Shown here: one piece after another, positions 2,202-44,162 of the stretch
How the letters are laid out: the number at the start of each line of letters is the position of its first letter
Position numbering within the stretch: the first letter of the stretch is position 1
From: Microcaldota archaeon
GTDB lineage: Archaea; Micrarchaeota; Micrarchaeia; Burarchaeales; Fermentimicrarchaeaceae
Direction of reading: 5' to 3'
Length of the DNA stretch: 45,854 nucleotides
Assembly: GCA_013425405.1 (NCBI GenBank)
Contig: JACCLF010000048.1
Location: forward strand, 1-45,854
Notes under the pieces: generated by a model
Databases searched by the model: none
What the model was told of the DNA's origin: nothing
What the model saw: the letters and a program-made list of their open reading frames with translations, nothing else
Made by a program: the position numbers and the translations under genes

Positions 2202-3332
2202 ATGAGAGCCTATAAATTCAGGATATATCCCTCGAAGAAGCAGGAGGAACTTCTGAATAAACATCTGTGGCTAGCAAAGAAACTCTGGAATGAGTTGCTT
2301 GAACACTGCAAACAGACCTATGAAGACTTTGGCTACTTCCCAACAAAAAACACATCGCAACTGGTGGTAAAAAATTATGGCCTCTATTCTCAAACCCAGC
2401 AGGAGATTGCTCACAGAGTTTATAATGCAGTAATGAGGGTTTTCAAGCTGAGGAAGAAAGGAGTAAAATGCGGTTTTCCACGTTTCAAATCTTTTGACAG
2501 GATGAAAAGTCTGCATTACCCGCAGTTTGGCTTCTCCCTTGAAGAGAAACTCAAAGTAACTCCTTTTGGTGAGATTGCGATAAAGAAGCATAGGAATATA
2601 AAAGGAAAAATTAAGACACTGACTCTGAAAAGAGAAGCATCTGGGAAATGGTTTGCTGTTTTTTGCGTTGAAACACCAAAAGAGTTTCCAAAAGAAAACA
2701 AGGGAGGGACAGTTGGAATTGACTTGGGACTGAAGACATTTGCGACCTTATCAAATGGAATGATGATAAACAACCCAAGGCATTTCAAGAAATACGAAGA
2801 CAGACTTGCCTTCATCCAGAGAGAGCTTTCAAAAAAGAAGAAAGGCAGCGCCAGCAGGAAGAGGGCAAAGATAAGAGTAGCAAAACTGCATGAGAAGGTG
2901 GCCAACACAAGAGCAGACTTCCTTCACAAGATTTCAACTGAATTGGTGAATGATTATTCCTTCATTGCATCAGAAAAGCTTGCCTCACAGGAAATGGCAG
3001 AACAGCATTACGGCAAGTCCATCAACGATGCGGGATGGAGCATGTTTACAAGCTTCCTTGCATACAAGGCGGAAGGGGCTGGATGCAGAGTGGTGTTTGT
3101 AGACCCAAAGAATACTTCAAAGATGTGCAGCAGGTGCGGAAACATCAGAGATGACCTGACGCTCGGGGATAGGATATATACCTGTCCTGAATGTGGGTTA
3201 TCAATAGACCGAGACATGAACGCTGCATGTGTTATACTCATAAGAGCTACCGGGGGGCACCCGGGAAGTAACGCTTCTGGAAATGCAACAATAGTTGCGT
3301 CTGTGAAGGAAGAAGCCCACACCTGTTTATAG
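2202..3332 (+). CDS. tnpB: TnpB, RNA-guided RuvC nuclease (IS1341 type), copy 1
   Basis: GIDLGLKTFA (RuvC D), IASEKLAS (E), CSRCG...CPECG zinc ribbon, DRDMNAA (D). Confidence 0.93.
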   Translation: MRAYKFRIYPSKKQEELLNKHLWLAKKLWNELLEHCKQTYEDFGYFPTKNTSQLVVKNYGLYSQTQQEIAHRVYNAVMRVFKLRKKGVKCGFPRFKSFDRMKSLHYPQFGFSLEEKLKVTPFGEIAIKKHRNIKGKIKTLTLKREASGKWFAVFCVETPKEFPKENKGGTVGIDLGLKTFATLSNGMMINNPRHFKKYEDRLAFIQRELSKKKKGSASRKRAKIRVAKLHEKVANTRADFLHKISTELVNDYSFIASEKLASQEMAEQHYGKSINDAGWSMFTSFLAYKAEGAGCRVVFVDPKNTSKMCSRCGNIRDDLTLGDRIYTCPECGLSIDRDMNAACVILIRATGGHPGSNASGNATIVASVKEEAHTCL

Positions 3333-9848: not shown

Positions 9849-9949
9849 GGGCCCGTAGCTCAGTTGGTCAGAGCGGCAGTCTTATACGACGCGCTCTTGC
9901 ACAAGTCTAGGAAAGCTGTAGGTCGAGAGTTCAAATCTCTCCGGGCCCA
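9849..9949 (+). tRNA. tRNA-Ile(UAU) with 27-nt intron (9887..9913)
   Basis: GGGCCCG/CGGGCCC acceptor, A discriminator, GAGAG-TTCAAAT-CTCTC T arm; BHB: GCAGT-CTTA-TAC-GAC...GTC-TAGG-AAA-GCTGT, cutting TA^C and AA^A gives loop CTTATAA. Confidence 0.88.
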
Positions 9950-9964
9950 TATAATGGTTTTTAG

Positions 9965-10291: not shown

Positions 10292-10327
10292 ACTGAGATA
10301 GGCAACTATATCCTCTAATGACTTGAG

Positions 10328-10500
10328 TTCACTGGAAAGTTACCCCCTCCAAAGGTTTATAAAGCAAAACTTATGAGTATGAACTACGGCTGGGCAAGTC
10401 GAAAGTAACGCCTGCAATTCCGTAATGGAGAGAGATGGTGCAGAAGCGCCGTCAATGAAGCAGGAACTACACGCCATGAAACAGGGGCTGAAAAAACACG
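10328..10500 (+). mobile_element. ORF-less internal-deletion derivative of the IS1341-type element (promoter + right end)
   Basis: TTCACTGGAAAGTTACCCCCTCCAAAGGTTTATAAAG matches the tnpB promoter of both full copies; AAGTAACGCCTGCAATTCCGTAATGGAGAGAGATG matches the copy-2 right end. Confidence 0.8.
10387..10500 (+). ncRNA. stand-alone TnpB guide-RNA scaffold (omega-RNA/reRNA-like), copy 3; 3' end approximate
   Basis: CGGCT-GGGCA-AGTCG, CCTGC/GCAGG, GATGGTGC-AGAA-GCGCCGTC; TATA TTTATAAAG at 10356-10364 predicts a TSS near 10386. Confidence 0.65.
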
Positions 10501-10559
10501 TAAATCGTGTAGGATGTACTATATATTTTAACTGACAAACACACTTTGAGGCGAAACCG

Positions 10560-10760
10560 ATGAAAAGTGTCTATAATATACCTGCGGACAGAGTCATAAA
10601 GAACCTGACTGAAGAAGAACCTCATAATGAACTTACGAATTGTGGAAGAAAAATTGCTATCTAGAATTTAGAAAAGGTTTTAGGGAAAGGATGGTGTACC
10701 CACAGGGGAAAAGGAAATGTAGATACAAAATACCCCGCAAACTGGGGCGCTAGATTAATA
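10560..10760 (+). pseudogene. decayed duplicate of rps19e (3' extent uncertain)
   Basis: ATGAAAAGTGTCTATAATATACCTGCGGACAGAGTCATAAAGAA versus ATGAAAAGTGTTTACGATGTGCCGGTAGACAGGCTCATAAAGAA of the intact gene; also GAGG(C/T)GAAAC just upstream in both. Confidence 0.72.
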
Positions 10761-10802
10761 TAGTTTGACTGCCTAATTCTATACCTTCTGAGGTGAAACA
10801 TA

Positions 10803-11222
10803 ATGAAAAGTGTTTACGATGTGCCGGTAGACAGGCTCATAAAGAAAGCTACAGAGAAGCTCAAGGATATTCCAGAGGTGAAGGCGCCCGGCTGGATGGA
10901 ATTTGCCAAGTCCGGTGCGCACCGAGAGAGGCCCCCTGAGCAGGAGGACTTCTGGTATATTCGCTGCGCTTCAATACTGAGGAAGCTATATCTAGATTCG
11001 CCCATAGGGGTGAGCAGGATGAGAAGGGAATACGGAGGAAGGAAGCACAGAGGGGTGAAGCCTGAGAGGTTCAAGAAGGGAAGCGGCTCTGTGGCAAGAG
11101 AAGCTTTGCAGCAGCTTGAGAAGGCCGGCTTCGTGGGGCACACAAAGAAGGGAAGGCACATCACAGGTAAGGGAAAGGCATTTCTTGATTCCGCTGCGTT
11201 GGATGCATCAAAGGTGGGTTAA
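10803..11222 (+). CDS. rps19e: Ribosomal protein eS19
   Basis: SVYDVPVDRLI, DFWYIRCASILRKLYLDSPIGVSRMRREYGGRKHRG, GRHITGKGKAFLD. Confidence 0.95.
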   Translation: MKSVYDVPVDRLIKKATEKLKDIPEVKAPGWMEFAKSGAHRERPPEQEDFWYIRCASILRKLYLDSPIGVSRMRREYGGRKHRGVKPERFKKGSGSVAREALQQLEKAGFVGHTKKGRHITGKGKAFLDSAALDASKVG

Positions 11223-42833: not shown

Positions 42834-44130
42834 GCGGGGAAATCCACATTCTTCAGAGGTGTGATGAAAGCGAGCTATATAAAGAAAGTATATATCATTC
42901 CACTTTCACTGGAAAGTTACCCCCCTCCACGAGGTTTATAAAGGGAGAAATAGACTTAAATAACGTCTATGAGGGCTTACAAATTTAGAATATATCCTTC
43001 AAAGAAGCAGGAGGAGCTTATGAACACTCATCTTTGGTTAGCAAAGAATCTCTGGAATGAGATGCTTGCCTTTACCAAAGAGATTTACGACAATTACCAA
43101 AGATTCCCAACTAAAAAGACATTAAGGGAAATTGTCAAACAGTCAGGTCTCTTCTCTCAGGTTAACCAGGAGCTTGTAGATAGGTTGATTGATGCTCTTC
43201 ATAGAAAGATAGAGATGAAGAAAAAAGGAGAGAAAGGCGGCTTCCCGCGCTTCAAATTTTTTGACAGGATGAAGAGCTTATCATATCCACAATCTGGCTT
43301 TTGGTTGGATAAGAAACTGAAGGTCACTCCATTTGGAGAAATTGCAGTAAAGAAGCACAGGGACATAAAAGGTAAGATTAAGACACTGACTCTTAAAAGG
43401 GAAGGTTCAGGTAAATGGTTTGCAACCTTCTCTGTTGAAACTCCAGAAGAGATTCCAAGAGAAAACAGAGGAGAAGCAGTGGGAATTGACTTGGGGCTGA
43501 AGACATTTGCAACCCTCTCAAATGGAATAAGGATAAAAAACCCAAGACACCTAATGAAGCATGAGGACAGGCTTACCTTCATACAAAGGAAGTTCTCAAA
43601 GAAAAAGAAAGGAAGCGGCAACAGAAAGAAGGCAAAGATAAGAATTGCCAGATTACATGAGAAGGTAGCAAACACAAGAAAAGACTTCCTGCATAAAACA
43701 TCAACACAACTTGTCAATGATTATTCCTTCATAGCATCAGAAAAGCTTGCCTCAAAAAAAATGTCAGAAGAAAAATATGGCAAGCAGATAAGAGATGCTG
43801 GATGGAATATGTTTGCAGACATTCTTGCATACAAGGCGGAAGGGGCTGGATGCAGGGTTGTGTTTGTAGACCCAAGAAATACTTCAAAGATGTGCAGCAG
43901 GTGCGGAAACATCAGAGATGACCTAACTCTCTGGGACAGGGTGTATACCTGTCCCAATTGTGGTCTATCAACAGACAGAGATTTAAATGCTGCAGTAAAT
44001 ATACTCATAAGAGCTACCCCCGGGCAGGGGGGAAGTAACGCCTGCAAGTCCGTAAAGGAGAGAGATGTTGTATTGGCAACGTCTGTGAAGCAGGAAGCCC
44101 GCACCCTTCATGGGTGGGAGCATGTCACCA
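42834..44130 (+). mobile_element. IS1341-type element, copy 2
   Basis: Ends shared with copy 1 (AGCGGGGAAATCCACATTCTTCAGAGGTGTGATGAAAGCGA ... GGGAGCATGTCACCA). Confidence 0.8.
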
Positions 44131-44162
44131 TCAGCTATTGTACGGGTATTACTCACTGTTAA
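42969..44162 (+). CDS. tnpB: TnpB, RNA-guided RuvC nuclease (IS1341 type), copy 2
   Basis: GIDLGLKTFA, IASEKLAS, CSRCG...CPNCG, DRDLNAA. Confidence 0.93.
   Translation: MRAYKFRIYPSKKQEELMNTHLWLAKNLWNEMLAFTKEIYDNYQRFPTKKTLREIVKQSGLFSQVNQELVDRLIDALHRKIEMKKKGEKGGFPRFKFFDRMKSLSYPQSGFWLDKKLKVTPFGEIAVKKHRDIKGKIKTLTLKREGSGKWFATFSVETPEEIPRENRGEAVGIDLGLKTFATLSNGIRIKNPRHLMKHEDRLTFIQRKFSKKKKGSGNRKKAKIRIARLHEKVANTRKDFLHKTSTQLVNDYSFIASEKLASKKMSEEKYGKQIRDAGWNMFADILAYKAEGAGCRVVFVDPRNTSKMCSRCGNIRDDLTLWDRVYTCPNCGLSTDRDLNAAVNILIRATPGQGGSNACKSVKERDVVLATSVKQEARTLHGWEHVTISYCTGITHC
44017..44130 (+). ncRNA. TnpB guide-RNA (omega-RNA/reRNA) scaffold, copy 2
   Basis: CCCCC-GGGCA-GGGGG, AAGTAACGC, CCTGC/GCAGG enclosing GATGTTG-TATTGG-CAACGTC, terminal GGGTGGGAGCATGTCACCA. 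Confidence 0.7.

Follow-up and report, generated by a model that had tools for sequence, protein, structure and literature searches.

The window analyzed here is the whole of contig C9 (45,854 nucleotides) of the 946-kb draft genome of a Candidatus Fermentimicrarchaeum (Micrarchaeota). On its forward strand, positions 10328 to 10519 hold a copy of the local TnpB element that is devoid of an open reading frame (ORF) and comprises a conserved block, a TATA box, a 20-nt spacer, an omega-RNA scaffold, and the right end of the element. This copy lies between the stop codon of Rpr2 and the S19e gene, and the same position is occupied in Ca. F. limneticum Sv326 (G003; CP058998.1), while the site is empty in three other genomes of the genus (G004, G005, and G006). 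Comparison of these empty sites with the occupied Sv326 orthologue suggests a degenerate left end, whose exact boundary is approximate, at positions 10292 to 10327 (+), directly 3′ of the Rpr2 stop. Upstream of Rpr2 there is a tRNA gene (9850 to 9950) whose anticodon loop seems to contain an intron.

The promoter-proximal block (TTCACTGGAAAGTTACCCCCTCCAAAGG; 10328 to 10355, +) is common to full tnpB copies. At three or fewer mismatches the window has one further occurrence of it, at 2140 before the tnpB gene at 2202, against a chance expectation of zero (100 shuffles), and a promoter block also precedes the tnpB gene at 42969. It is followed by an archaeal TATA box (TTTATAAA/TTTATAAAG; 10356 to about 10363-10364, +) with a family-conserved spacing to the first scaffold hairpin, and then by the scaffold core, which begins with CTAC (10384 to 10466, +) and was identified by a match to covariance model R1, by covariation, and by its fold. 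The same three lines of evidence define, all on the forward strand, hairpin 1 (10387 to 10401), a closing stem CCTGC/GCAGG (10411 to 10415 with 10460 to 10464), hairpin 2 (10419 to 10429), and hairpin 3 (10434 to 10453). No ORF runs from block to scaffold, the longest open stretch being 12 codons, which bears out the original prediction of a tnpB promoter joined to the guide RNA scaffold with the nuclease gene missing. The proposed coincidence of hairpin 1 with the predicted transcription start held as well, with the TATA box at 10356 and the hairpin at 10387 to 10401; in archaea, a TATA box at such a distance directs initiation to the opening bases of the scaffold. The fold of the window copy is moderately better than that of shuffled sequences (z = −2.24), and the copy shows signs of wear: the left palindrome is lost, the right end reads GTAC against GTCAC, the spacer is shorter, and there are G-U pairs.

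Downstream of the scaffold core, positions 10467 to 10519 (+) form an alternative 3′ end, here called the B end, with a terminal hairpin at 10496 to 10510. Relatives show that the right end of the window copy (CTACACG...GATGTAC) extends to 10519, so that any guide would start at 10520 and not at about 10500 as first proposed. The presumed guide placed after it, 10520 to 10539 (+), is flanking DNA from the S19e promoter region. Just downstream of the element, at 10540 to 10770 (+; limits approximate), both occupied genomes carry a decayed second copy of the S19e promoter and of the first ~100 bp of the gene, which is absent from G004 to G006; the true S19e gene is at 10803.

The window contains three scaffolds, at 10384 to 10466, at 44014 to 44096, and, in a shorter form, at 3247 to 3314, the latter two accompanying full-length TnpB genes on the forward strand (42969 to 44162 and 2202 to 3332, respectively). 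The TnpB domains found with Pfam were OrfB_IS605 and Cas12f1-like_TNB (RuvC, zinc ribbon), and the TNB domain has nine matches in the genome. The translation of 42969 to 44162 has an intact RuvC D-E-D (VGIDLG, IASEKLA, DRDLNAA) and matches ISDra2 TnpB structures with an E value of 2e-48. This gene carries a scaffold of the same type as the ORF-less copy and is the likely partner in trans. The idea that either TnpB of the window could load the RNA needs to be narrowed, since the 2202 to 3332 gene is accompanied by a divergent scaffold of only 68 nt and is therefore the less likely partner.

To gather the family, the genus was searched by blastn with positions 10328 to 10520, and the matches were fetched and aligned. 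ORF-less full-length matches were found in the window's own genome and in relatives, giving 15 copies with the promoter-scaffold arrangement (class I) in five genomes of the genus: three in its own genome (L001, L002, and L007), six in Sv326 (L031, L035, L039, L046, L069, and L070), four in G004 (L030, L034, L038, and L051), and one each in G005 (L052) and G006 (L032). The conserved block is present in 13 of the 15. In the other two, L052 and L070, the upstream block has diverged, yet the same TTTAAATA box stands 22 to 23 nt before hairpin 1. Despite widely differing spacer sequences, the TATA box is 20 to 23 nt from hairpin 1 in 13 of 15 copies and 30 nt from it in two sister copies. One complete element was found in another genus of the family (G001), in the order TTTAA, left palindrome, TTATAT box, 22 nt, hairpin 1, scaffold, right palindrome. 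Rfam searches (with gathering thresholds for seven loci and by E value for five) gave no credible match other than tRNAs, and no viral contigs with the scaffold core were found.

The block also occurs in other settings. At L012 and L047, in two species, block and TATA box precede a 41-amino-acid ORF (MKxDIAxLTLNEVEALAERLKMxNVSTVIQRxGDRLVLDVS), a possible case of promoter capture by a host gene. At L081, L090, and L087, the promoter block stands directly before host genes without a scaffold; these genes include an SMC-like ATPase (assigned by eye) and the gene adjoining L002. In Sv326, three block matches (C1:342813, 368802, and 394791) are spaced by exactly 25,989 bp, which suggests a 26-kb tandem triplication in that assembly.

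When L007, L031/L032, and L034 were compared with empty sites, each proved to have inserted precisely 3′ of TTTAA and to have left the target unduplicated; for the window copy, the insertion motif appears to be GTTAA-like. The near-terminal palindromes are clear in L007, L046, L069, and L177, and the window copy retains the right hairpin next to a decayed left one. The ORF-less copies are thus not one-off deletions but PATE/MITE-like elements, and the locus, first described as a unique stand-alone minigene, turns out to belong to a non-autonomous mobile family. A search for the Y1 transposase TnpA (PF01797) gave no match in five genomes, one of them with a complete chromosome, and was positive in control genomes; the transposition helper may have been lost or may be of another kind. 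Across the genus, this lack of Y1 TnpA in the five genomes goes together with many TnpB elements per genome.

Precise insertion at TTTAA is equally what would be expected of an ordinary PATE or MITE, i.e., a deletion derivative that moves, or formerly moved, by means of its ends only and in which promoter and scaffold are passengers with no RNA function. Such elements are common in archaeal IS605 families, where they arise by core deletion (PMC3119063), and derivatives of this sort exist in the genus: L005, L048, and L047 are promoterless, with the left palindrome fused straight to the scaffold, and L016 keeps the ends only. These four loci show how undirected core deletion looks in these elements. 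Passengers, however, should decay like the spacer, and this is not the pattern observed. Mean pairwise identity among the ORF-less copies is 0.86 in the scaffold and 0.78 in the block, compared to 0.57 in the spacers (shuffled baseline, 0.45) and 0.50 in the 70 bp upstream, which is chance level (shuffled baseline, 0.50). With the covarying stems described below and the fixed promoter spacing also against it, we regard the passenger interpretation as unlikely.

The three named stems are paired in 95.3% of cells across 13 ORF-less copies, with 23 both-sided changes compared to 8.2 in shuffles. The stem covariation score of these copies is 0.326, against 0.093 in shuffled data; none of 500 shuffles reached 0.326, and sliding the stem partners gave at most 0.063. 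RNAalifold adds the invariant closing stem CCTGC/GCAGG. Maintenance of the stems by compensatory change, as originally proposed, is accordingly confirmed, and the random stem decay in relatives that was to count against it was not seen. These counts need caution in that the copies are not independent: element bodies are similar to those of paralogues within their own genome (L001 and L002, L035 and L046, L031 and L069) while the ends differ, a sign of gene conversion. Conversion between copies could preserve scaffolds without function, and we counted this against our preferred explanation. That the conservation was simply imported from active tnpB elements into inert ORF-less copies is nevertheless highly improbable. 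A hairpin 1 variant, CGCTG-GGGCA-CAGCG, was seen six times among the ORF-less copies but never among the tnpB copies examined, so that at least this compensation was not borrowed from them; the B end is likewise confined to ORF-less copies, and tnpB copies cannot have been the donors of either.

Two kinds of 3′ end were distinguished. The tnpB copies have the A end (...GGGTGGGAGCATGTCAC). The B end, which measures 53 nt in the window copy, consists of CTACACGCCATGAAACAGGGGCTGAAA, a hairpin, and GGATGT(C)AC, and is found in eight copies, every one of them ORF-less. Eight further ORF-less copies, with a longer RNA, form class II: L010 and L180 in the window's own genome, L059 in Sv326, and L077, L078, L079, L181, and L182 in G005. 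They share a common right end, a homologous TnpB-type core, and a long 5′ domain, and most have the promoter block. Covariation in their hairpin 1 extends as far as a full flip of the stem (GGGAG/CTCCC). Among the loci searched, no tnpB copy carries a class II scaffold, and the four class II copies searched in Rfam (L010, L059, L077, and L182) had no match. Stems that still covary where no tnpB copy was found speak against passenger status, and, in the genomes searched, there is no tnpB donor from which class II scaffolds could have been converted.

At the IF5B locus, the C-terminal tail of the protein (SSHD*/SSHG*) in G003 to G005 is apparently encoded by a B end or its remnant (L134 to L138); a similar remnant is present in G006 and none in G000. 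The reverse derivation, of the B end from the end of the IF5B gene, was considered and set aside in favor of an element remnant, because G000 lacks the sequence and G005 and G006 resemble element remnants.

The B end, which is strongly conserved and confined to ORF-less copies, could also point to domestication, i.e., to an immobile regulatory RNA whose guide or B end controls a fixed host target such as the neighboring S19e promoter. B-ended copies do occur at orthologous positions across species (the S19e, IF5B, and L031/L032 loci), and the guide of the window copy is homologous to the S19e promoter. On the other hand, the same loci are empty in other species. An earlier version of this idea, in which B-ended copies were immobile domesticated genes because they have no canonical left palindrome, was dropped when the empty sites showed precise insertion at TTTAA. 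Nor do the guides behave as expected of a dedicated regulator. In four orthologous pairs (L001/L035 at S19e, L038/L039 at IF5B, L031/L032, and L052/L070, the last judged orthologous from matching flank sequence only), the 16-nt guides show no more conservation than the flank next to them (identity of 0.65 to 0.81 and 0.56 to 0.88, respectively). The search for guide targets proposed earlier yielded no second credible target: positions 10520 to 10536 have four other matches in their own genome at 3 mismatches, compared to six for a reversed control, i.e., background. Both results argue against a dedicated regulatory target and fit a guide that does no more than mark where the element inserted, and domestication appears improbable. 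In the case of L007, 18 of the 20 nt that follow the right end agree with the empty site of a sister species, and it is this site that TnpB would encounter as its target.

Taken together, the locus is, as far as its sequence and those of its relatives can tell, probably a non-autonomous IS200/IS605-type (PATE/MITE-like) element that has kept its own promoter and a complete omega-RNA scaffold and uses TnpB in trans. That the arrangement recurs in the 15 class I copies, in class II, and in another genus is consistent with an RNA that works in trans; of the trans guide proposed originally, the architecture thus stands, while nothing indicates a dedicated trans regulator. A transcript driven by the TATA box would begin with hairpin 1 and proceed through scaffold and right end into the flanking DNA, and the product would be an omega-RNA with the sequence beside the element as its guide. 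TnpB supplied by sister elements would take up this RNA in trans and cleave element-free copies of the site next to the TTTAA-like motif, whereupon the element would be copied back and so be kept. We put forward more tentatively, as a possibility somewhat short of even, that these copies represent a class of guide-RNA-only mobile elements, in which promoter and omega-RNA alone suffice to hold and spread an insertion site with the TnpB of others, and which have evolved RNA forms of their own that no nuclease-encoding element shares, namely the B 3′ end and the class II 5′ domain.

The prevailing view is that TnpB works in cis, serving the element that carries its gene. If the trans reading is true, the RNA and not the nuclease would be what an element must carry for its protection, and TnpB would be a shared resource open to cheaters, with a likeness to the split between nuclease and guide locus in CRISPR-Cas12. 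Use in trans also lends itself to a direct test, given an archaeal TnpB, a small set of RNAs, and the genomes already available.

Stand-alone omega-RNA loci acting in trans were reportedly proposed for IscB by Altae-Tran in 2021. The IscB omega-RNA (HEARO) is likewise a transposon guide RNA, with a Cas9-type nuclease and a different RNA fold. For TnpB, it is established that the nuclease cuts a site with a target-adjacent motif (TAM) and a match to the guide and thereby promotes recopying (PMC11870625, PMC10278001), and TnpB as a site-recording drive has already been published (PMC11870625). TnpB guide RNAs apart from the gene are also on record: only 64% (10,258 of 16,029) of RAGATH-18 RNAs, the guide RNAs of IS607 TnpB, adjoin a TnpB gene (PMC11061315). 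Those RNAs differ in belonging to IS607 and mostly to Firmicutes, and the unpaired ones do not appear to be analyzed there as elements with their own promoter (PMC11061315). Our literature search, which was lacking two key papers, returned no account of ORF-less elements with a promoter at a fixed distance from an intact TnpB scaffold. As in the omega-RNA (reRNA) of ISDra2, of the IS200/IS605 group, the scaffold lies at the right end, the guide is flanking DNA, and TTTAA is the presumed TAM (PMC8612924, PMC10278001). IS200/IS605 omega-RNAs, however, either overlap tnpB or come after it, and the tnpB mRNA can be a source from which they are processed (PMC8612924, PMC10278001), whereas here a TATA box stands 20 to 23 nt before hairpin 1 and there is no ORF. 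The closest parallel in overall form is provided by the haloarchaeal IS605-type PATEs (PMC3119063), which are also core-deletion derivatives of tnpB-bearing IS605-type elements, with no ORF, near-terminal palindromes, and no target duplication. Those PATEs are fused ends, i.e., non-coding remnants (PMC3119063), whereas the elements described here retain a promoter and a whole scaffold at fixed spacing, with compensated stems.
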